Assembly: GCF_001590795.1 (NCBI RefSeq)
Contig: NZ_JXDL01000001.1
Location: 5,123,758 to 5,187,757 of the forward strand
Source: Bradyrhizobium sp. AT1
GTDB taxonomy: Bacteria; Pseudomonadota; Alphaproteobacteria; Rhizobiales; Xanthobacteraceae
Reading direction: 5' to 3'
DNA length: 64,000 nucleotides
Below the pieces are notes generated by a model. That model had not been told where the DNA came from and made no database searches. It saw only the letters and a list, made by a program, of their open reading frames with translations. A program made the translations under genes and the position numbers. Below are positions 52,262-64,000 of this stretch, piece by piece. Numbering within the stretch: the first letter of the stretch is position 1; the number at the start of each line of letters is the position of its first letter.

Positions 52262-55200
52262 CTATGAACGGCCCCTTGCCGGGTCAAGGACGCTCACGCC
52301 GAGATGAAGGGATGCCAGCGCCGCGTCCAGCGCGGGGGCAGAAATCTCCATATATTCAAGGGCCTCGGTCCAGAGCAGGACGGCCCTGATGGGCTTTTGG
52401 GGATAAAGCCGCGCCAGCACCGCCCGGTACAGCGCGAGCTGCCGGACATAGGCGACGGGCGCATCGGTGGCGCTCTTCGGCGCGGCCTGGTTGGTCTTGA
52501 AATCGACGATCAAGACCTCCTCCGGGCGAACGACCAGCCGGTCGATCTGTCCCGACACCAGCGCCGGCGGGCGGCCCGGCCGCTCCAATTTGCCGACAAT
52601 GGCGACCTCCGCCCGGCTGCCGGCGGCAAACACCGGGGCGAATCGCGGCTCGGCGATCAAAGCGAGCACCTTGTCGGCGAGCGCCGTAAGATCGGCCTCC
52701 GCCCAGCCCGCGGCATTGCGGGCCATGAAGCCCAGCGCGGCCTCGCGGCGGCGCTCGATGGCAATGTCGGGCAAGGATTGCAGCAGCCGGTGCACCAGCG
52801 TGCCGCGCTGCAGCGCCAGCGCGCGGGACTGTACCGATTCGCCGGACCGGACACTGCGGCCCTCTTCGGGCGGCTGGCCGGAGGGACGGACCAGATCATC
52901 GTCGATCTCGCGCGGTGCGGGCGTCCGCAGCCAGTCCGGCAATTCGACCGCCTGGTCCACCGCGGTCGCCGGCGTGCCCAGCGTCGCGACATCCTCCGGC
53001 CGGGCGAATCGGGTGACCTTGCCGAGCGGCGTCTCGATCACCTGCTTGTCGAGGCCGGAGCCTTTGAGCCCGGTGTCGATCAGGTCGTACCAGCTCAGCT
53101 TGCGCACTGTCCTCATGTTGCCGGGCATGCAGCCGCCGACGATCAACCGGTCGGCCGCGCGCGTCATCGCGACATAGAGCAGGCGGCGATATTCGTCCTC
53201 GGTCTCCTCGATCATCGCCTTGCGCGCGTCCGCGACGGGCTTGGGATCATCCGCCTTGCGTCCGGCCCAGACCACGACCTCGCCGCCATTGCCGCGCGGC
53301 ACGTGGATCAGCCGCACCCGCTGTGAGTCCGCAGGGGACGAGGTAGTGTCGACCATGAACACGACCGAGGCTTCGAGACCCTTGGCGCCGTGCACGGTCA
53401 TCACGCGCACCTCGTCGCGGGAGATCTCCATGTCGCGCTTCACTTCGGTGTCGGCCGAACGCAGCCAGGCCATGAAGCCCTGCAGCGAGGCCGGCGCCTT
53501 GCGCTCGTAATTCAGGGCCAGCTCCAGAAATTCGTCGAGTGCGTCGTTGGCCTCATGACCGAGCCGGCGCAGGATGCGCGCACGGCCGCCGTCGCCGCCG
53601 AGCAGCCAGGCGTAGAAGGCGAACGGCGTCTCCTCGCGCGCGCGGCTCTCGCAGGCTTCCAGGCGCCGCAGCACAGTCGCGAATTTCTCAGCTGTAGCGG
53701 CGTGCTCGCCGAGCGCGCGGCGCAGCGATCCCTTGCGGTCATGGGCGAGGGTGAAGAGGTCGTCGTCGTCGAGCCCGAACAGCGGGCTCTTCAGCGCCAC
53801 CGCCAGCGCGAGATCGTCCTGCGGCAGCAGCAGCGCATCCGCAAGGTTCATCAGATCGATGATGCCGATATGTTCGGTGAGCTTGAGCCGGTCGGCGCCG
53901 GCCACCGGAACACCGGCATGCTTTAGCGCCTGGATCACGGCGTCGAACGCATTGCCGCGTCGGCGGACCAGGATCAGCATGTCGCCATAGCGCAACGGAC
54001 GCCGCTCGCCTTCATGTCCGGTCAGCGTGCCGCTCTCGACCAGGTGCTTGATCTCGGCCTGGATACGGCGGGCAAGCTTGACCTCGGGGCTGGTGACGGC
54101 GACGCCGTCGAACGGCGCGCGCCAACCCTCGATGTCCTGCCGGTCGTCGGCCTCGCAGAGATCCCACAGCTCGATCACGCTGGGGCCGGCGTCGGCGAGT
54201 GCATTGTGCAGGGGATGGCCGATCTCGACCGAATGGATGCTCTTGTAGATCGCGGGATCGCGGAAGACGTGGTCGACGGCGTGAAGGATCGTGGCGCCCG
54301 AGCGGAACGAATAGGTGAAAGCGACGGGATCGAACTTCAGCCCGGCGGCGGTGAACTTGCGGTGCAGCTCGCGCCGCCGCGCGTCGAACTCGTGCGGAGC
54401 TGCGCCTTGGAACGAGAAGATCGACTGCTTCTCGTCGCCCACGGCGAAGACGGTGCGGTTCAGCCCCTCGCGCGCGCCTTCTCCGGCCGTGAATTCCGAG
54501 ATGATATGCGCGACGATGTCCCATTGCCGCGGGCTGGTATCCTGGGCCTCGTCGATCAGGACGTGATCGACGCCGCGGTCGAGCTTGTAATGCACCCAGC
54601 CCGAGGCGACGCGGTCAAGCATCGCCAGCGTCTTGTCGATGAGATCATCGTAATCGAGCAGCCCGCGCTCCTGCTTTTCGCGGCGATAGTTTGCCGCGGC
54701 GGCGGTCGCGATGTGCAGCAGGGCCGCCGTGCGGTCGCGCATGGTCACGGCGCGGCGCTTCTCGACCAATCCACCGATGCGCTGCGCCTCGTTCTCGAAC
54801 AGGCGGGCGACGGACGGATTGTGCTCGCCAAACTTCTTGGTCAGCACCGCCTTGCGGGGCAGCTTTTCGTCGGTAAGGAAGACGGACAGATAAGCATCGA
54901 CCTGCGCGCTGCCGGAAAACACCTTGGCCTCACGAAGGCGGGAGGCCTGGTCGTTGTCGGACTTGCTGCCGTCCTCCAACGCAATGGCGATGTCGTCCCA
55001 ACGCGAACGCGGCAAATAGGGCCCATCGAGAATCTCCGTCTCGACGTCCTCGATGCGGTCGCTGGCATCGACGCCCAGTGCCGCCGCCATCTGTGCAGCC
55101 GCCGCTTCCGCGTTGCCGGCCTGATCCGTCCAGGCCATGAAATGATCCCGGCTCAAACACGCCTCGCGCACGACCTCCTTGAAGGTGACATCGGCGGCGC

Positions 55201-55768
55201 TCGCCATCGCGGTCAGCAAGGCGCGGCCGGTGACGCTCTCCGGATCGCGCGCGGCCTCCAGCAGCACTTTCAGATTGGCGCGCTCCATCATGTCGGTCTG
55301 GTCGCGCTCGTCGATGACGGAGAAGCGCGCGGGCACGTTGGCTTCGAACGGGAATTGCTGCAGCAGCCGCGTGCACAGCGCGTGGATGGTCTGCACCTTC
55401 AGCCCGCCCGGCGTCTCCAGCGCGCAGGCGAACAGTTTTCGCGCGTTGCGTCGCAATTTTCGATCGGGATGGGGAATGCCGACCGCGCGGATTGCGGCGT
55501 CGAGCGCGAGGTCGTCCAGCGTCACCCAGTGACCGAGCGTGGTGAACACGCGCTCGGCCATGTTGGCCGCAGCGGCCTTGGTGAAGGTGATGCAGAGGAT
55601 CTTTTCCGGCGGCACGCCCGACAGCAAGAGGCGGATCACGCGCTGCACCAGCACATGGGTCTTGCCCGAGCCAGCATTGGCCGACACGAAAGCTGAGGCA
55701 GTCGGATCCGACGCGCGGGCCTGCCGCGCGCGCACTTCATCCGGGATGGGACGCGGCGCCTTCACCAT
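52262..55768 (-). CDS. addA: Double-strand break repair helicase-nuclease AddA
   Basis: AddA is the UvrD-like helicase and nuclease half of AddAB, which processes broken DNA ends for RecA. The 1168-residue protein has Walker A SANAGSGKT (Lys36), the motif II region LIDEAQDTSPRQWDIV, ITFTKAAAANMAERVF, MTVHGAKGLEASVVFMVDT and LLYVAMTRAADRLIVGG, then a RecB-like nuclease with VDFKTNQ near the C-terminus (LIVDFKTNQAAPKS). ATG 55768 overlaps the addB stop (ATGGTGA), so the genes are coupled. The extension to 55801 lies inside addB. Confidence 0.97.
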   Translation of the reverse strand: MVKAPRPIPDEVRARQARASDPTASAFVSANAGSGKTHVLVQRVIRLLLSGVPPEKILCITFTKAAAANMAERVFTTLGHWVTLDDLALDAAIRAVGIPHPDRKLRRNARKLFACALETPGGLKVQTIHALCTRLLQQFPFEANVPARFSVIDERDQTDMMERANLKVLLEAARDPESVTGRALLTAMASAADVTFKEVVREACLSRDHFMAWTDQAGNAEAAAAQMAAALGVDASDRIEDVETEILDGPYLPRSRWDDIAIALEDGSKSDNDQASRLREAKVFSGSAQVDAYLSVFLTDEKLPRKAVLTKKFGEHNPSVARLFENEAQRIGGLVEKRRAVTMRDRTAALLHIATAAAANYRREKQERGLLDYDDLIDKTLAMLDRVASGWVHYKLDRGVDHVLIDEAQDTSPRQWDIVAHIISEFTAGEGAREGLNRTVFAVGDEKQSIFSFQGAAPHEFDARRRELHRKFTAAGLKFDPVAFTYSFRSGATILHAVDHVFRDPAIYKSIHSVEIGHPLHNALADAGPSVIELWDLCEADDRQDIEGWRAPFDGVAVTSPEVKLARRIQAEIKHLVESGTLTGHEGERRPLRYGDMLILVRRRGNAFDAVIQALKHAGVPVAGADRLKLTEHIGIIDLMNLADALLLPQDDLALAVALKSPLFGLDDDDLFTLAHDRKGSLRRALGEHAATAEKFATVLRRLEACESRAREETPFAFYAWLLGGDGGRARILRRLGHEANDALDEFLELALNYERKAPASLQGFMAWLRSADTEVKRDMEISRDEVRVMTVHGAKGLEASVVFMVDTTSSPADSQRVRLIHVPRGNGGEVVVWAGRKADDPKPVADARKAMIEETEDEYRRLLYVAMTRAADRLIVGGCMPGNMRTVRKLSWYDLIDTGLKGSGLDKQVIETPLGKVTRFARPEDVATLGTPATAVDQAVELPDWLRTPAPREIDDDLVRPSGQPPEEGRSVRSGESVQSRALALQRGTLVHRLLQSLPDIAIERRREAALGFMARNAAGWAEADLTALADKVLALIAEPRFAPVFAAGSRAEVAIVGKLERPGRPPALVSGQIDRLVVRPEEVLIVDFKTNQAAPKSATDAPVAYVRQLALYRAVLARLYPQKPIRAVLLWTEALEYMEISAPALDAALASLHLGVSVLDPARGRS

Positions 55769-58700
55769 TCCTCGATCCCCAGGCCGCCGGCCGCGGACCA
55801 TTCCTTGATCCGGGCGAGGTCGTCATAGGCGCCGTAGCGGTTGGTCCACATCGGCAGGTTCAGCGAGGTGTAGGGCTGGTTCTCGTCGTCGAACGCGCGG
55901 ATCAGCGCTTCCAGCTTGGCCCGTGCTTCCGCGGCTGCGGTGTCCGGCGGCTGCGGCTCCTCGCCCGGCTTGTATTTGAGCTCGAGGATGCGCTCCTCGC
56001 CCGGCGGGTTGTTGCCGCTCAAGCGCACATAGACGAGCTGACTTACCGACGAACCCGCGTCTATATCGGGGAAACCGCCTTCGCGGAGGATGGCGGCTTC
56101 CAGCGTCAGCTGCGGTGACAGGCCCATGCGGACCTGCTTGCCGGTCGGCGGCTGGCCGGTCTTGTAGTCGAGGATGGCGTAGCCGCCGCCCTGGCGCCGC
56201 TCGATGCGGTCGGCGCGCGCGGACAGCTTGAAGCTGCGCGTGCCGTCGAGCGGGATCGAAATCTCGCCGCGCGTTTCCGCCGTGATCCCTTCGATCGCCT
56301 CGCGCCGGGCGGTCTCCCATTCGCCGAACCAGCGCGCAATGCGCTGAAAGCGTGGCCACCACAGCGCGCGCGCCTCGGGACGTTCCATCAGCGGCGCGAA
56401 ATGCTTCTCGCCGATGGCGCGCAGCACGCGGGCGGGATCGTCGGGCAGACGCGTGGCGTAGCTTTCGGTGAACTCACCGATCGCATCGTGAATCGCGGAA
56501 CCGCGATCGGCGGCCGACAGCGGCATGTCGACGGGATCGAGCGCATCCAGCCGCAGGATATACTTTGCATAGATGGTGTAGGGATCGCGCAGCCAATCCT
56601 CGATCGCGGTCACCGACATCTTCAATGGCCGCGTCGCGCGGGGTGGTCGCGGCTCGGGTTGCTTGATCGGCTCGACCTTGTCGGGCTGGTCCAGCCGCTC
56701 TGCAAATCGCACGTAGTTTTCGCCGGCATGAACGGCCGCCTTCCAGAGCTCGTCGCCCGCCACCGCTTCCAACCGGTGCAGGAAGCGCGAGGTCACGGCC
56801 GGTGCGCCGCCGGCCTTGGCGGAGTGGGTGAGGATCACCTCATGGCCGCCGAGCAGCTGGGCAAAATCATGCGCGGAGAGGCCGATACGGCGCTCCGGCA
56901 AATCGAGGCCGAGCTCGTGCCGCATCGGCCGGCTCAGCCAGGGATCGATGCGCGGCGCCGGCGGCCAGACGCCCTCGATCAGGCCGCCGACGATGATGCG
57001 GTCGGCCTGCATCAGGCGCGATTCCAGCGGGCCGTAGATCTGCAGCCGCGCGCCAGGCTTGTCGCGCCGCCGCACCGCGCGATCGCTGAACGCGGTCTGG
57101 AAGACATCCGCGTAGTCGGGCAGCGTCACCAGCAACCCGCTGGTCGTGCCGCCGCGCAGGAGATCGTCGAAGGCGCTCGCGAGTGCGAGGCCCTCGCGCT
57201 CCTCGAAGGCCAGCGGAATGCCCTGCTCGTCACGCGACAGCTCGATCATGATCTCGCGGTGACGATGCGCAAGCTCGGCGAAGTCATACGGTTTTAGAGA
57301 GGCCAGGCTCTCGATCGGCGCCAACGCCTTTTGCAAAATATCGATCAGCGCCTGGACACGGTCGAGATCCTCGGCCTTGAGATGCGCGCGGGGCTCGGCG
57401 CGATGCAGCGCGGAGACCTCGCTGCGCCACAATTTTGCAAGCTCATCGCGAAAGCGGTTGAATTCGCGCAACAGGCCGGCCGTGCCGGCAGGCGGACGCG
57501 TGCCGCGCAAGATTGCGAGCTCGAGATCTTCGATCGCCGCCTTCCAAGCGCCGGGCAGCCGGCCGAGCCGGCATAGCGGATGCTTCAGCAGCGCCAGCAG
57601 CGTCGGTGGCTCCAGGCCCTTGGTCGCCGCTTCCGCCACAAGGCGCGCGAAAACGCCGGCTGAAGTTTCCATCAGGACGTCGCCGCCGGAATCGTCGAAA
57701 CTGAGGCCCCATCGGGTGAGCGCCGCCATCACCCGCCGCGCCAGCGCGCGGTCCGGCGTCACCAGCGCTGCCGACTTGTCGAGATGCCGTGCCTCGCGCA
57801 TCGCAATCGCGATCGCGAGCGCTTCCATTTCGGGGTTGGGGGCCTCGACGACCGCAAGATTTGTCATGCCGCCGGCGATCTTCGCGGCGACGTCAGGCTG
57901 CTTCAGCCGGTCGTGCCAGACTTCCGTCTTGGCGGAGGGCCGCATCGATTCGGAGGCGAGCAGATCGCGACCGCCTTCGGCCGGCGGCCGTAAAATCTCG
58001 ACGTCGCTGCGCTTGATGCCGAATCGATCCAGCAGCGCATTCATGGCGTATTGCGGATGGTTCGAGGCCGGGTGCTCGACGAATTTGCCGAGCGAATCGC
58101 GCAATCCGCCGATGCTGCGCCAGGCGTCGTCGTCGAGATCGGTGTCGAGGCCGGGCAGCACCACGGCGCCATGCGGCAACGATGCGACCGCGTGCAGGAA
58201 TTTCGCGGTGGCCGGCATCGAGCCGGTCGAGCCCGCCGCGATGACAGGTCCATGCGGATGCGCGGTCAGCCGCTTGGCTTCCGCCGCGATCAGGAGGTCG
58301 CGCCGCGCCGCGGGCTCGATCCGGTTGATCTCGGCGAGATGACCGGGCCAGGCGATGCGCGCGATGCGCAAGAATTCGAGCGAGTGCTGCCAATAGCGAT
58401 CGAGGTTGTCAGGCACGAGGCCGTCGAGCGCGTTCCAGTCGACGCCGCGCGTGACCATGTCGTCGATCAGGCGTGCGAGGTCGCCGGCGAGCGCGAGCGT
58501 CGAGGCGGGCCCGCCGACTACCAGCGGCGCCAGCACCGGGCCCTTGGCCCACGCCGCAACCAGTTGTGCCAGCGTCAGCCGCCGCTCGAGCTCGCCAAGC
58601 CGCGGCGGAATATCGAGCGGCGTCGCGCCGGAAAATTGCTCGCCGTCATCGGCGAAGGCGAGCTCATCCTCGTCGATGTCACCGAGCGCGACGATGCGCG

Positions 58701-58908
58701 GCAGCACGACGGCATCGGCCTTCATCTCGTCGAGGAAAATCTCGCGCACGACGCGCATGGCGCGGCGGGTCGGCAAATACAGCGTTGCGTCGGCAAGCCG
58801 CGCCGGTTCCCTGCGCGCCTCGAAGCCCTCGACCAGCCGTCCCTCGAGCAGGGCCGTGACGACCGTGCGCAGGAACGGAACTGAGATGGGGACGCTGAAA
58901 ACGCGCAT
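55762..58908 (-). CDS. addB: Double-strand break repair protein AddB (alphaproteobacterial type)
   Basis: AddB is the partner of AddA and recognises Chi-like sites in other species. The 1048-residue protein has the AddB-alpha features: RVFSVPISVPFLRTVVTALLEGRL, RRAMRVVREIFLDEM, GSTGSMPATAKFLHAVASLP and IIVGGLIEGVWPPAPRIDPWLSRPMRHELGLDLPERRIGLSAHDFAQ. A PD-(D/E)XK nuclease domain with YAILDYKTGQPP follows. It is normal length. Its stop overlaps the addA start. Confidence 0.96.
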   Translation of the reverse strand: MRVFSVPISVPFLRTVVTALLEGRLVEGFEARREPARLADATLYLPTRRAMRVVREIFLDEMKADAVVLPRIVALGDIDEDELAFADDGEQFSGATPLDIPPRLGELERRLTLAQLVAAWAKGPVLAPLVVGGPASTLALAGDLARLIDDMVTRGVDWNALDGLVPDNLDRYWQHSLEFLRIARIAWPGHLAEINRIEPAARRDLLIAAEAKRLTAHPHGPVIAAGSTGSMPATAKFLHAVASLPHGAVVLPGLDTDLDDDAWRSIGGLRDSLGKFVEHPASNHPQYAMNALLDRFGIKRSDVEILRPPAEGGRDLLASESMRPSAKTEVWHDRLKQPDVAAKIAGGMTNLAVVEAPNPEMEALAIAIAMREARHLDKSAALVTPDRALARRVMAALTRWGLSFDDSGGDVLMETSAGVFARLVAEAATKGLEPPTLLALLKHPLCRLGRLPGAWKAAIEDLELAILRGTRPPAGTAGLLREFNRFRDELAKLWRSEVSALHRAEPRAHLKAEDLDRVQALIDILQKALAPIESLASLKPYDFAELAHRHREIMIELSRDEQGIPLAFEEREGLALASAFDDLLRGGTTSGLLVTLPDYADVFQTAFSDRAVRRRDKPGARLQIYGPLESRLMQADRIIVGGLIEGVWPPAPRIDPWLSRPMRHELGLDLPERRIGLSAHDFAQLLGGHEVILTHSAKAGGAPAVTSRFLHRLEAVAGDELWKAAVHAGENYVRFAERLDQPDKVEPIKQPEPRPPRATRPLKMSVTAIEDWLRDPYTIYAKYILRLDALDPVDMPLSAADRGSAIHDAIGEFTESYATRLPDDPARVLRAIGEKHFAPLMERPEARALWWPRFQRIARWFGEWETARREAIEGITAETRGEISIPLDGTRSFKLSARADRIERRQGGGYAILDYKTGQPPTGKQVRMGLSPQLTLEAAILREGGFPDIDAGSSVSQLVYVRLSGNNPPGEERILELKYKPGEEPQPPDTAAAEARAKLEALIRAFDDENQPYTSLNLPMWTNRYGAYDDLARIKEWSAAGGLGIEEW

Positions 58909-59000
58909 GGGCTGCCTGATTCGGAGGAACAGGCAATATAGGGAGGCGGGGTCGAATGGTCATGGGGCGGGGAGGAATCGTCCCCGTTGTTCGGCGTTTC

Positions 59001-59086
59001 GTAGCCCGGATGGAGCGGAGCGCAATCCGGGATTCGTGCCACAAGCCCTGGGGCCCCGGATTGCGCTCCGCTTCATCCGGGCTACG
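59001..59086. repeat. GTAGCCCGGATGGAGCG palindromic repeat, copy 4
   Basis: The same palindrome, with the spacer GATTCGTGCCACAAGC shared with copy 3. It lies 21 bases past the murU stop, in the gap to addB. Confidence 0.87.
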
Positions 59087-59107: not shown

Positions 59108-59830
59108 CTACGCCACGCTCTCCAGAAACGCCTCTTCCGCGGCGTGCACGGCATCGGGCGTGCCGACATGCATCCAGACGCCGTCGAGGCGGAGGCCGAA
59201 GAGGCGCTCCTGCTCGTTGGCACGGTCGAACATTTTTGTCAGCGAGAACTCGCCTTGCGGCGCGCCGTCGAAGATCGTGGGCGACAGGATCGCAGCGCCC
59301 GCATAGACGAACGGAACGACTTCTTTTTCCTTGCGCTTGCGCAAGGCGCCGTCGGGCAGCATGCCGTAATCGCCGCGGCCGCTATAGCCGATGCTGGTCG
59401 CGGTCGGCGCCATCAGCAGCAGGATATCCATGCGCTCAGGGTCGAAATTCTCGGCGAGCCGCGTCAGGTTCGGGCGCACGCCGTCGATCCACAAGGTGTC
59501 GGAATTGACATGGTAGAACGGCGCATCGCCGAGCAGCGGCAGCGCCTTGACCACGCCGCCGCCGGTGCCGAGCACCTGGTCGCGCTCGTCGGAGATGGTG
59601 ACGCGCGGATGCTGGCGCGAGGCGGTGTGCTCGATGATCTGGTCCGGCAGGTAATGCACGTTGACCACGGCGTCGGTCACGCCGGCCTGGCCGAGCTTGT
59701 CGAGCACGTGGTCAAGCAGCGGCTGGCCGGCTACCGGCACCATCGGCTTCGGCATCTTGTCCGTCAGTGGACGCATGCGCAGGCCGAACCCTGCGGCGAG
59801 CACCATGGCTTTGGTCGGTTTGACGGACAT
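59108..59830 (-). CDS. murU: N-acetylmuramate-1-phosphate uridylyltransferase-like enzyme (MurU)
   Basis: MurU activates MurNAc-1-phosphate to UDP-MurNAc in wall recycling, bypassing MurA. The 240-residue nucleotidyltransferase has AMVLAAGFGLRMRPLTDKMPKPMVPVAGQPLLDHVL, TGGGVVKALPLLGDAPFYHVNSDTLW and FLESVA at the end. In Pseudomonas it works with AmgK, a kinase encoded just upstream here as part of a TsaE fusion. Only the PilZ protein gene lies between. No signal peptide. Generic sugar-1-phosphate nucleotidyltransferase is the alternative. Confidence 0.88.
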   Translation of the reverse strand: MSVKPTKAMVLAAGFGLRMRPLTDKMPKPMVPVAGQPLLDHVLDKLGQAGVTDAVVNVHYLPDQIIEHTASRQHPRVTISDERDQVLGTGGGVVKALPLLGDAPFYHVNSDTLWIDGVRPNLTRLAENFDPERMDILLLMAPTATSIGYSGRGDYGMLPDGALRKRKEKEVVPFVYAGAAILSPTIFDGAPQGEFSLTKMFDRANEQERLFGLRLDGVWMHVGTPDAVHAAEEAFLESVA

Positions 59831-59946
59831 CTCGCTTTCTCAGACCTTTCGCGTTCGCAGCAACCCTAACACGAGGTTCGATCGGCCGCACCGCATCTCA
59901 ATCGCCTTAGCCAGCCGCCGTGACGGTTGTACGACGGGTGTTGCCG

Positions 59947-60264
59947 TCATGCCCCGACGGCTGTGGAACGCGCCTTCTTCTTCTTGTCGCCGACTTTCAG
60001 GAAATTGACGCCGATCTGGTCGCCATTGACCCAGGCCAATTCGCAGCGCCGATAGGCCAGCCCGGTGGAGGACAGCAGCAGAAAGAATTCCTTCAGGTGC
60101 AGGCCTTCGACCGAGCCGTCGATGGTCAGCTTGGCGCCGCTGTCGGAGACGTCCTCCATGGTGCATTCGCGCCGCCAGGTCCCGTCGATACCCATCATCT
60201 GGGCCGGAATCCCACGCTCGAAAACGACCCGGCTGTTGCCACGCTGGTCCGTCTTTACCGCCAT
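59947..60264 (-). CDS. PilZ-domain protein
   Basis: The 105-residue protein has the c-di-GMP-type pattern: QRGNSRVVFERGIPAQMM with Arg residues in the N-terminal switch, then the DVSDSGAKL motif (D-x-S-x-x-G), and CELAWVNGDQIGVNFLKVGDKKKK. The first Arg-rich motif (RxxxR) reads R-G-N-S-R, as needed for c-di-GMP binding. It is between the tsaE-amgK fusion and murU on the same strand. The role may be to link c-di-GMP to wall recycling or it may be independent. Confidence 0.85.
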   Translation of the reverse strand: MAVKTDQRGNSRVVFERGIPAQMMGIDGTWRRECTMEDVSDSGAKLTIDGSVEGLHLKEFFLLLSSTGLAYRRCELAWVNGDQIGVNFLKVGDKKKKARSTAVGA

Positions 60265-60350
60265 CTGCCCGCTCCAGCCCGTATTTATCCGGCTGCCTGG
60301 CCGCCAGAATACCGACGTCTTGGCTAACAGCCGGTAAATCAGGTCCCAAA

Positions 60351-61883
60351 TCAGGGCTGAGGCGGACTTTTGGGCGGCGGCACGTTGGCGAGATACCAGT
60401 CGCGCAGGAAGCCCAGCGCAGGATGCGCCAGCGAGCGTTGGAGATAGGTCCAGATCCGCGGCTGGTGACGCAGATAGTGCGGCTTGCCGTCGCGGCGGTT
60501 GAGCCGGGCGAAGGTGCCGAGCAGGCGCGTGTTCCGCTGCGCCGACATGATGGCGTAGAGCTCGGCGAAGCCGGCGGCGTCGAAGGCCGCGTCGCTGGCG
60601 CGGCGCGCCTTGATGTAGCGCGACAGCAGCGTGAGCTCGATGTTTTCGGGCACGTCGATGCGGGCATCCTGGAGCAGCGACACCACGTCATAGGAGTGCG
60701 GACCGAGTACCGTGTCCTGAAAGTCGATCACGCCGACGCGTTCGATGCCGCTGCGATCGTCGAGCCAGATCAGGTTCGGCGAGTGGTAGTCGCGGATGAC
60801 CCACGTCTTCGGCGCGGCCAGCGGCTTCTTCAAGAGCTCGCGCCACATCGCGAAGAACTCCGCGCGGGCCGCTTCGCTGAGCGGCGCGTTGCGATCGGGC
60901 AGATACCATTCCGGCATCAGGCCGATTTCGATCAAGAGCGCCTCGACGTCGAAGACCGGGATGTCGTAACTCTGGCCGGCCAGCGGCAAGGTTTCCGGCA
61001 GCGTCTTGGCGTGCAGCGCGGCGAGCACGTCGGTCGCAGCCTCGTACCGCTCGCCAATCGGGCGCGGCGGATGGCCTTCGATTACGCCTTCGCTGCCGAA
61101 ATCCTCCGAGATCAGAAAACCGTGGTCGAGATCGAAATGGTGGATCGCCGGCGCGGATACTCCCGCCGCGCGCAGGCCTTCATCGACGGCAACGAACGGC
61201 TTGATGTTTTCCGCCAGATGCACTGCTGCGCTGTAGGACTTGCCGTTATAGAGCGCCGCGCCATCGGGGCGCTGCGGTGAATTCATGAGAATGACGACGC
61301 CGTCGTCGCGGATCAGGCGCGCATAGGACCGCGTCGAGGCATCCCCGGCCATGCGCTTGCGTCCAGCGTCGATATAGCCCGAGTTGTCGAGGAATTCGCG
61401 CAGCGCCTTCAACCGCGGCACAGTCGCAGCGGCCTTGCCATACCCGGTGATATCGGCTGCGCGTGCGTTCGAGCCCAGCGCCGGCCGATGCGTCAGCGCG
61501 ATGTCGATGCGATCTGCGGGCATTGCCGACGGCGCGCGCTCCGGCCATTCGATCAGGACCAGCGTGGCCTCGGGGAGCGGCGACAGCCCGATCTCCTCGA
61601 GCTCGCTCTCGTCCTCGATCCGGTAGAGGTCGGCATGCATCACCGGGAAAGGCGGCAGCTCATAGCTTTGCACGAGGGTGAAGGTCGGGCTCGGCACTTC
61701 CAGCTCCTCGTCGCCGGCGAGGTAGCGGATCAGGCTGCGCGCCGCCGCGGTCTTGCCGGCGCCGAGATCGCCGGTGAGAGTGATGACGTCGCCGGGGCCG
61801 ATCAGGAGCGCGAGGTCGGCCATCAATTGCGCGGTGGCCGTCTCGTTGTGAAGCGCGACGGAAAGTTTGGTGGGCTCTGTCAT
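60351..61883 (-). CDS. TsaE-AmgK fusion: tRNA t6A ATPase and amino-sugar kinase
   Basis: The 510-residue protein fuses two enzymes. Residues 1 to about 150 are TsaE (LTGDLGAGKTAAARSLIRYL, Walker A Gly38-Thr45; SPTFTLVQSYE; HADLYRIEDESELEEIGL; VLIEWPERA), which helps make the t6A base of tRNA. Residues about 155-510 are an aminoglycoside phosphotransferase fold (RKRMAGDASTRSYARLI, VIRDYHSPNLIWL with catalytic Asp and Asn, GVIDFQDTVLGPHSYDV) matching AmgK, which phosphorylates MurNAc and GlcNAc at C1. murU lies just downstream. The start overlaps the DivL-like stop by four bases. Fusion appears real since one frame covers both. Confidence 0.92.
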   Translation of the reverse strand: MTEPTKLSVALHNETATAQLMADLALLIGPGDVITLTGDLGAGKTAAARSLIRYLAGDEELEVPSPTFTLVQSYELPPFPVMHADLYRIEDESELEEIGLSPLPEATLVLIEWPERAPSAMPADRIDIALTHRPALGSNARAADITGYGKAAATVPRLKALREFLDNSGYIDAGRKRMAGDASTRSYARLIRDDGVVILMNSPQRPDGAALYNGKSYSAAVHLAENIKPFVAVDEGLRAAGVSAPAIHHFDLDHGFLISEDFGSEGVIEGHPPRPIGERYEAATDVLAALHAKTLPETLPLAGQSYDIPVFDVEALLIEIGLMPEWYLPDRNAPLSEAARAEFFAMWRELLKKPLAAPKTWVIRDYHSPNLIWLDDRSGIERVGVIDFQDTVLGPHSYDVVSLLQDARIDVPENIELTLLSRYIKARRASDAAFDAAGFAELYAIMSAQRNTRLLGTFARLNRRDGKPHYLRHQPRIWTYLQRSLAHPALGFLRDWYLANVPPPKSPPQP

Positions 61884-64000
61884 TCGGCGGCGTCGCGATG
61901 CGCCGCCTGGTCGGTCGGGAAATCACAGATTACGACCGTGCCGCGGCCGACGATCGAATCCACAAGCACCTTGCCGCCATGCAGCTCGACGAAGGAGCGC
62001 ACCAGCGACAGGCCGAGCCCGGCGCCGCGGTGACGCGAGCCCTGCGAGCGGCTTTCGAACCAGTTGAACACCTTGTCCTTCATGTCGGCAGGTATTCCAG
62101 GCCCGGAATCTGTCACGGTGAAGACCACGCTTCGCTCGGTGCGCCGCGCGCTGATACCGACGGTGGAATCCTGTGGAGAAAACCCGACGGCGTTGGCGAG
62201 GAGGTTATAGAGCACCTGCACCACGCGCTTCTCGTCGCCGACGAAGCTGCCGACGTCGGGCGCGATCTCGACCTTGAGGCGGATGCGGTCGGTGGCAAGC
62301 CGGTCCTGGATTCCCTCCGCGGCCAGCTCGATGGTCTTGCTGACGTCGACGGGCCCGAGTTCCAGCTTCATGGCGCCGGCGTCGATGGTGGCGAGATCGA
62401 GGATGTTGTTGGTGAGCGCCAGCAGCGCGTTGGTCGATTTGGTGACGTAGTCGAGATATTCGGCCTGTTTCGGCGTCAGCGGCCCGGTCGAGGGATCGCT
62501 GAGGAAATGCGCGAAGCCGATGATGGTGGTGAGCGGCGAGCGCAGCTCGTAGGAAACGTGGTGGACGAAATCCACCTTCATCTGGTCCGCGGCCTCCAGC
62601 GCCTCGTTGCGCTCGCGTAGCGCGCGCTCGACATTCTCGGTGTCGGTGATGTCCTGGAACGTCAGCATGGTCGCGCCGTCGTGCAGCGGACGGATCATGC
62701 CGTCGAGCACGCTGCCGTCCTTCCGCTCGAGCTTCAGCGGCACGTCGGCGCGGCTCTCGATCGAGGTGACGGCCTCGCGGATCTGGCGCCAGACCGCGGG
62801 ATCGTCGAACAGCTGATGACACCAGCCTTCGACGGTCTGGATATGCGGCTCGTCGCGCATGGCATCGCTCGACAGCTTCCACATCCGGACGAAGGCCGGA
62901 TTGAACAGCTGGGCCTTGCCGTTGCTGCCGAACACCGCGACGCCTTCGGCGAGGCTGTCCAGCGTCTCGCGCTGAACCCGGATCATGCCGTCGAAGCGGC
63001 GGGCAAGCTCGAGGCTTTCGGTGACGTCGTCGAACAGATAGGTGACGCCGCCTTCCGGGTTCGGCGTGGTGACGACCGAGAGCGCGCGGCCGTCGGGCAG
63101 ATACCAGGTGTCCTTCGCGGCCTCGACCGCGCGATAGGCCTCGTGCAGTTTCGCTTTCCAGGCGCGGAAATCGGGCTGCTCGGGCAGCTTGCGCGCGGCG
63201 CGGAGCTTGTCGAGCACGCTGGAATCGTCGGGATTGGCGTCGAGGAAGCTGCGGTCGAGGTCCCACAGCCGGCGGTAGGAATCGTTGTAGAAGGCGAGCC
63301 GGCGCTGGCCGTCGAACACGGCAACGCCGGAGGAGAGCTGGTCCAGCGTGCGGCGGTGCGCCTCCGCCATCCGCACCAGCGCGGAGCTGAGCGCATCCGC
63401 CTCGCTGGCATCGATGGCGACGCCCACGCTGCCGCTGCCGACATTGACGGCGCGCACGTCGTAGATGCGCCGCTCACCGCTGATCACGATCGGCAGCCGC
63501 GAGGTGAAGCCCGCGGCGTCCTTCAGGCCCCGCTCCATCGCGGAGCGGTCGGCGCTGTCGAGCAGCTCGAGCTTGCGCTCCTGCGCGTCGGTGACGCTGG
63601 CTGCTTCGGTGGCGCGGACATAGGCCGGGTTGGCATAGGTCAGCGCGCCGTTCTCGCCCTTGGCCCAGATCGGCCAGGGTGCAGCGGCGGCAAAGCCGCG
63701 CAGCATCTCGGTCTCGTCGGACAGCGCGTTGTAGCGCAGATTGGTCTCGGCCAGGTCGCGGCGCAGCCCGGAGAGTTCGCGAATCCGGACAATGGCTTGG
63801 CCGCCGATGGCGCGGCCGATGGCCTCCAGCGTGTGGCCGTGCGCGGTCGTCAGCGTCAGCTGGAACCCGTCACCGCGGTCGCGCAGTGCATCGACCGCAT
63901 GATCCATCTGCAGCGCGGGTTCCGGCGGCAGCCAGGTTCCGAAGGCGAGCACGCGCTGCGGCGAGGAGTCGCGCGGCAGCACCATGGAGATGTCGCCGGA
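61880..64000 (-). CDS. divL: DivL-type PAS pseudo-histidine kinase (N-terminus outside window)
   Basis: The gene runs off the right edge; 707 codons are visible. It has several PAS-like domains (such as APWPIWAKGENGALTYANPAYVRATEAAS, GVAVFDGQRRLAFYNDSYRRLW and GVAVFGSNGKAQLFNPAFVRMWKL), then a dimerisation region and an ATPase domain (LLANAVGFSPQD, VTDSGPGIP, GAGLGLSLVRSFVELHGG). The H-box reads FVHHVSYELRSPLTTIIGF: Tyr (codon 62551-62549) replaces the phospho-His, the hallmark of DivL, which controls CckA-CtrA cell-cycle signalling. The visible ATP site has N, G1 and G2 boxes. The first Met seen (63985) is not the start. Confidence 0.85.
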   Translation of the reverse strand, partial: SGDISMVLPRDSSPQRVLAFGTWLPPEPALQMDHAVDALRDRGDGFQLTLTTAHGHTLEAIGRAIGGQAIVRIRELSGLRRDLAETNLRYNALSDETEMLRGFAAAAPWPIWAKGENGALTYANPAYVRATEAASVTDAQERKLELLDSADRSAMERGLKDAAGFTSRLPIVISGERRIYDVRAVNVGSGSVGVAIDASEADALSSALVRMAEAHRRTLDQLSSGVAVFDGQRRLAFYNDSYRRLWDLDRSFLDANPDDSSVLDKLRAARKLPEQPDFRAWKAKLHEAYRAVEAAKDTWYLPDGRALSVVTTPNPEGGVTYLFDDVTESLELARRFDGMIRVQRETLDSLAEGVAVFGSNGKAQLFNPAFVRMWKLSSDAMRDEPHIQTVEGWCHQLFDDPAVWRQIREAVTSIESRADVPLKLERKDGSVLDGMIRPLHDGATMLTFQDITDTENVERALRERNEALEAADQMKVDFVHHVSYELRSPLTTIIGFAHFLSDPSTGPLTPKQAEYLDYVTKSTNALLALTNNILDLATIDAGAMKLELGPVDVSKTIELAAEGIQDRLATDRIRLKVEIAPDVGSFVGDEKRVVQVLYNLLANAVGFSPQDSTVGISARRTERSVVFTVTDSGPGIPADMKDKVFNWFESRSQGSRHRGAGLGLSLVRSFVELHGGKVLVDSIVGRGTVVICDFPTDQAAHRDAAE

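Follow-up and report, generated by a model that had tools for sequence, protein, structure and literature searches.

Why should an enzyme of tRNA modification and a kinase of cell-wall recycling be encoded as a single polypeptide? The question is raised by a 64,000-nt stretch of Bradyrhizobium sp. AT1 DNA (the window, to whose coordinates and fusion protein all base and residue numbers below refer), on whose minus strand a 510-codon gene (60351..61883) joins TsaE (residues ~1-148) to an AmgK-type kinase (residues ~149-510) within the gene row divL, fusion gene, pilZ, murU, addB, addA and trxA. The original prediction had placed the 510-residue TsaE-AmgK chain, a PilZ protein and MurU on one strand, and this arrangement was borne out by the open reading frames and the profile matches. 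Very probably the gene encodes a bifunctional protein, holding the genome's sole TsaE together with an AmgK-type kinase and descending from an old, order-wide fusion of neighbouring operon genes. The single frame, the sole TsaE, the intact active-site residues, the conservation across the order, the conserved neighbourhood and the near-fixed junction length on which this reading is built were all observed directly.

The TsaE domain (residues 12-132; 61488..61850, minus strand) matches PF02367 above the gathering cut-off (E 8e-32), carries the Walker A motif GDLGAGKT and accounts for the only TsaE profile match in the genome, which also holds TsaD and a TsaB-like gene as partners. Its fold was confirmed by structure search of the model described below (5np9, TM 0.88; 6n9a_E, TM 0.87; template modelling scores by target length), and the P-loop lysine K44 along with S65, D85, Y87, E112 and W113 is invariant across 49 fused proteins. 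Y87, E112 and W113 presumably correspond to Y82, E108 and W109 of Escherichia coli TsaE. In E. coli, where TsaE is essential, the substitutions Y82A, E108A and W109A abolish the N6-threonylcarbamoyladenosine (t6A) activity and a T43 mutation likewise loses activity, according to PMC4330362. Ala46, which occupies the place of T43 after the P-loop, was considered as a sign of lost function and found uninformative, being present in 8 of the 49 fused proteins and in unfused ones as well. The window protein shares its Walker A motif, switch residues and fold with bacterial TsaE (YjeE), the partner of TsaB and TsaD in one complex, but bears a kinase of ~360 residues at its C terminus. In t6A synthesis on tRNA, the TsaE half would be the ATPase by which TsaD-TsaB is reset.

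The kinase domain (residues 162-502; 60378..61400, minus strand) matches the AmgK profile NF045698 over positions 6-355 of 360 (E 1e-72) and the aminoglycoside phosphotransferase (APH) fold PF01636 above cut-off. Residues D181, S183, R185, D365, N370, D387, Q389 and D390 are invariant in the 49 fused proteins, and among 65 fused and unfused AmgK sequences the checked kinase columns are alike save H367 (62/65) and D390, M200, R450 and G456 (64/65 each). By sequence, the solved kinase nearest to this half is 3csv (E 8e-52), which is also its best fold match (TM score, taken over the target length, 0.84; 33% identity). This Silicibacter sp. TM1040 protein, named only as a putative aminoglycoside phosphotransferase, differs in being a 333-residue chain without TsaE. 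Two order genomes (G185:C3:204036 and G158:C5:251761) hold a second, free-standing AmgK-like kinase beside the fused one. Within the genus, two comparisons gave ratios of nonsynonymous to synonymous substitution rates (dN/dS) of 0.13-0.16 for the TsaE half, 0.13-0.20 for the AmgK half, 0.07-0.08 for MurU and 0.05-0.08 for PilZ; a further comparison against locus L079 was set aside, with values of 0.4-0.6 in three of the four genes and dS near saturation.

The MurU-type nucleotidyltransferase (240 aa; 59108..59830, minus strand) was identified by both profile and structure-sequence matches, NF045697 being covered over nearly its whole length (positions 1-226 of 229, E 9e-77) and the solved structures being led by 4y7t, a nucleotidyl transferase, followed by 8hhd, which is listed as MurU (1e-29). 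From the nearby MurU and from work on relatives, the kinase half may be expected to phosphorylate N-acetylmuramic acid (MurNAc), perhaps also N-acetylglucosamine (GlcNAc), at C1; its product would pass to MurU, two genes downstream, to yield uridine diphosphate (UDP)-MurNAc without MurA. AnmK is present in the window genome, and NagZ is among the possibilities for its two GH3 matches. The kinase and uridylyltransferase types of the window are the same as those encoded together in the Pseudomonas AmgK-MurU pathway, in Agrobacterium tumefaciens (Atu0026/Atu0025) and in Caulobacter crescentus (CCNA_03649/CCNA_03650). Fosfomycin transposon sequencing (Tn-Seq) in A. tumefaciens points to AnmK, MupP, AmgK (Atu0026) and MurU (Atu0025) (PMC9790009), Caulobacter amgK deletion leads to MurNAc accumulation and amgK mutants are fosfomycin-sensitive (PMC13046382, PMC11980594), and loss of AmgK-MurU raises fosfomycin sensitivity in both species (PMC9790009, PMC13046382, PMC11980594). 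By analogy with these relatives, the predicted wall-recycling bypass and its role in fosfomycin resistance appear well founded for the window genes too. The window kinase differs from AmgK as presented in those three papers in forming the C-terminal part of a chain that begins with TsaE, and the word TsaE does not occur in their main text. We infer that both activities reside in the one protein.

How general the arrangement is was assessed by searching PF02367 and NF045698 in 121 genomes of the order, which includes rhizobia, Agrobacterium and Brucella (see also PMC9790009 and PMC9491525). TsaE was matched at E 1e-10 in 118 of the 121, exactly once in each, and AmgK in 115; both domains occurred in 113 genomes, in 112 of which they lay on the same contig in one open frame, as compared by eye. 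The lone exception (G214, locus L081) carries TsaE fused to an initial portion of AmgK, with the remainder of AmgK in another frame; this apparent break of the AmgK half, in a genome that also lacks an AnmK match, perhaps reflects pathway decay or a sequencing error. In two further genomes (G159 and G173) AmgK lies at a contig end and TsaE is not matched. Among the six genomes without an AmgK match (G146, G148, G191, G196, G228 and G233), all five that have a TsaE match encode it as a free-standing protein of 158-183 aa with divL upstream.

A second sample, the best 80 of 321 relatives of a Sinorhizobium meliloti protein (from Sinorhizobium, Ensifer, Rhizobium, Shinella and kin, or 'Rhizobiales bacterium'), returned 79 fused loci, the remaining one being cut by a contig end, and the order DivL-TsaE-AmgK-MurU-AddB was kept in 75 of the 79. 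In S. meliloti Ak57 the match to UIJ95027.1, annotated as TsaE only, covers 97% of the fusion, and the gene is placed likewise between a divL-like gene and one named 'nucleotidyltransferase', the MurU-type gene (L142); the record lists no PilZ gene in between, unlike the window. Brucella abortus BAB1_2102, again named TsaE only, holds the corresponding operon place; in PMC9491525 the next gene is named mannose-1-phosphate guanylyltransferase, and the gene row together with upstream bvrR/bvrS forms one transcript by reverse transcription PCR (RT-PCR). Longer open frames of 949-1338 aa (G226, G216, G260 and G175) were examined as DivL-TsaE-AmgK triple fusions and ruled out, DivL being in another frame.

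The database records found name the fusion only as TsaE. No description of a TsaE-AmgK fusion was found in the open-access literature searched, so its absence from print is not established; one YjeE-related paper mentions YrdC-Kae1 fused proteins, with no TsaE-kinase fusion in the portion of its text concerned with 'fused'. The wall-recycling literature (PMC9790009) and the BvrR/BvrS operon literature (PMC9491525) probably refer to the same gene, each by a different half of it.

Why these two enzymes came together can be approached from outside the order, and the answer replaces the earlier statement that t6A and wall recycling are paired for no clear reason. A class sample of 142 genomes gave TsaE matches in 137, of which 136 were above cut-off and two came from the window's order. 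Nine of the other 134 showed a TsaE open frame of at least 470 aa, and inspection of all nine resolved them into six TsaE-AmgK fusions (L063-L067 and L119), one case of separate frames, one DivL-TsaE frame and one TsaE-MurU frame. The 580-aa frame of G135 was rejected as a fusion, TsaE and AmgK lying in separate frames. Thirty out-of-order stretches were mapped, hand-picked for long frames and larger contigs and hence non-random; tsaE and amgK are separate neighbours in 17 of them, fused in six, and amgK is missing beside tsaE in seven. Of the 17 split pairs, 9 have a candidate start codon in a four-base overlap with the tsaE stop and one was unmeasurable; in an annotated Sphingomonas parapaucimobilis record four-base overlaps occur at divL/tsaE, tsaE/phosphotransferase and phosphotransferase/nucleotidyltransferase. 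Since tsaE, amgK and murU adjoin one another in other orders of the class, often overlapping, inheritance of an operon neighbourhood is the best explanation for the pairing. The fusing event itself would have consisted in neighbouring, often overlapping tsaE and amgK losing the intervening stop, whereby the last helix of TsaE and the first of AmgK could have merged into one; the fusion would then have been kept across the order.

Three frames outside the preceding pattern may be recorded here. TsaE, AmgK and MurU share one 777-aa frame, no stop separating AmgK from MurU, in the incomplete genome G202 (L126, 3916-6246, plus strand), a possible triple fusion; DivL and TsaE share a 990-aa frame in G040 (L062, 6102-9071, minus strand), a genome without an AmgK match, which is a possible fusion of cell-cycle kinase and TsaE; and TsaE and MurU share a 528-aa frame in G048 (L068, 2466-4049, minus strand), with no AmgK match between them and AmgK-like matches on other contigs.

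A tree built from TsaE, AddB and AddA of 67 loci, rows without AddB being excluded, groups the 39 loci of the order (36 fused and 3 AmgK-less) with modest branch support (0.76 in one tree, 87 and unstarred in another). The AmgK-less loci, L072 on the one hand and L074 with L076 on the other, are rows of odd composition and branch at two places inside the fused set; because they nest in two places among fused loci, TsaE was probably retained while the kinase half disappeared on two or more occasions. L068, AmgK-less and from outside the order, was also placed in the fused set in one tree, its long branch making the position doubtful. Fused and split states need five changes on the tree; with regard to independent origins, an approximately unbiased (AU) test on 24 hand-picked of the 58 fused or split rows did not reject one clade for all fusions (p 0.172).

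Several observations weigh against the bifunctional, wall-recycling reading. The AmgK match of 245 bits lies below the NCBIfam naming cut-off of 500, which is a naming threshold and no defining trait, and this cut-off, which the Caulobacter control passes, is reached by none of the 121 order genomes; the MurU match (257 bits) similarly falls below its naming cut-off of 370. AnmK is missing in 8 of the 115 AmgK-bearing order genomes, the known pathway thus not being always complete, and G196 retains a MurU-type gene without AmgK. At four of the 79 fused named loci (L232, L233, L238 and L240) neither MurU nor AddB appears in the 4 kb that follow the fusion, the checked kinase residues being intact. 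The kinase motif of these four loci reads DVH instead of DYH or DFH, and they had at first been missed by the motif filter; all the checked residues are retained. That Agrobacterium Atu0026 is this fusion is probable, judged from its named relatives.

The rival explanation that survives best, though we regard it as rather unlikely, is that the halves are coupled, a rigid joint letting the ATP state of TsaE or TsaD-TsaB binding tune the kinase, or the reverse, with wall salvage being tied to translation capacity. It draws on the junction: the invariant R141 at the end of TsaE and D181 of the kinase are separated by 39 residues in 36 of the 43 order fusions (40 in six, 37 in one) and in 74 of the 75 named loci that passed the motif filter out of the 80 (40 in the other), and several spans within the domains vary more. 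In the AlphaFold model of the fusion, made from an alignment of 40 fused sequences, the domains are placed confidently relative to each other (predicted local distance difference test, pLDDT, 95.5; predicted TM score, pTM, 0.92), and the last TsaE strand (141-148) leads directly into one continuous helix (149-167), which makes a rigid joint likely. Against coupling, the spans 44-65 and 370-387 inside the domains are equally or more fixed, and part of the fixity would accordingly be ordinary domain structure. The six out-of-order fusions have junctions of 39, 46, 46, 49, 50 and 56 residues, and a control fusion from outside the order with a 46-residue junction also reached pTM 0.88, its model showing two separate helices linked by a weaker segment, this control having reused the alignment rows of the window model and being no independent test of special domain docking. 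Moreover, the five genomes that keep TsaE alone argue that TsaE does not need AmgK, and the two are separate proteins in the 17 split stretches described above. The halves would, on balance, work independently. A fuller form of the coupling idea, in which the TsaE switch and TsaB-TsaD docking control the MurNAc kinase via the rigid helix, matching salvage to tRNA modification, with PilZ as a cyclic diguanosine monophosphate (c-di-GMP) input in one family, seems to us decidedly unlikely.

It appears very improbable that the kinase half works chiefly for the t6A machinery, as the protein-kinase-like Bud32 does for KEOPS, and not for wall recycling. AmgK does have an APH/kinase-like fold, and in PMC9654439 Bud32 is an ATP switch analogous to TsaE and a Kae1-Bud32 fusion appears in the reference list; but AmgK mostly adjoins MurU even when unfused, and the MurNAc accumulation and fosfomycin sensitivity that PMC13046382 reports for Caulobacter amgK deletion point to the wall. 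AmgK loss is also accompanied by AnmK loss, AnmK being absent in 3 of 6 AmgK-less versus 8 of 115 AmgK-bearing genomes (Fisher p 0.0098, a value that ignores kinship, two of the three sharing a genus), although the eight AnmK-less genomes with AmgK, and G196 with MurU but no AmgK, speak against a strict AmgK-AnmK link. A frame error of sequencing or assembly, which a one-base slip could produce where genes overlap by four bases as in the split loci, is of negligible probability and was excluded as the artefact foreseen in the original prediction, the single frame recurring throughout the order and named samples with a near-constant junction length. An old bifunctional protein built from two ordinary enzymes is the most likely reading.

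The remaining neighbours were analysed for the suggested link between c-di-GMP, recycling and the cell cycle. The single-domain PilZ protein (105 aa; 59947..60264, minus strand) matches PF07238 above cut-off and carries RGNSR (8-12) and DVSDSG (38-43), instances of the RxxxR and D/NxSxxG motifs that we take to be c-di-GMP motifs. Neighbour PilZ proteins differ in the spacing of the first motif, which was judged by eye as its pattern also matched unrelated upstream letters, and 3 of 18 gave no DxSxxG match. PilZ was matched at 1e-8 in 25 of 61 genomes of the family, with a best match of at most 4.4e-32 in 18; the order AmgK-PilZ-MurU occurs at 17 of these 18 close-PilZ loci (L161 shows PilZ-MurU only), and the seven other PilZ-matching genomes have neither AmgK nor MurU within 1.5 kb. 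Among 51 order stretches mapped, window included, 43 show both AmgK and MurU, and PilZ stands between them in only three (the window, L077 and L078), all of one genus. Two PilZ paralogues with 52-55% identity exist in the window genome. The PilZ gene is real and selected, yet a local addition within one family that is unable to explain the fusion.

The DivL-type PAS/HisKA/HATPase protein (61880..64000, minus strand) is cut by the window and continues past its end, the most upstream start lying 384 bases beyond, at about window-equivalent 64384, for a protein of ~834 aa. Its stop overlaps the fusion start in the shared ATGA at 61880-61883, read in the sequence, and the four-base overlap noted earlier is hence real. 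In VSYELRSPL a tyrosine stands where the phospho-accepting histidine is expected, which is a mark of DivL; the closest solved kinase is the DivL structure 4q20 (E 2e-39), and 57 DivL-profile matches scoring above 600 show Tyr in 38, Phe in 1 and His in 1, the pattern not being found in 17. Upstream of divL in the window genome (L258, 834-5117), lie genes that by eye resemble dut, coaBC, ubiB and ubiE, in place of the ahcY/PTS genes of Sinorhizobium. With PilZ between AmgK and MurU in 17 of the 61 family genomes and DivL merely the next conserved neighbour, the link to c-di-GMP and the cell cycle is so far not supported.

Downstream, addB (55762..58908) and addA (52262..55801), both on the minus strand and identified by profile match, are conserved neighbours. 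A scan for promoters and terminators gave a single site for each, about as many as chance would yield. Between murU and addB lies a 32-nt inverted repeat, 97% complementary (59000-59086), whose 27-nt core occurs six times in the window with at most three mismatches (7876, 42603, 49877, 49928, 59005 and 59055) against none in 100 shuffles, and which looks like a repetitive extragenic palindromic (REP)-type repeat.

Overall, these are known enzymes joined in an old fusion that is standard across the order. Transposon and deletion data for this gene need to be read half by half, because in this order any whole-gene deletion aimed at the recycling kinase also removes the only TsaE. With a junction of near-constant length, a coupling of translation and wall salvage could be tested directly by separating the two halves.

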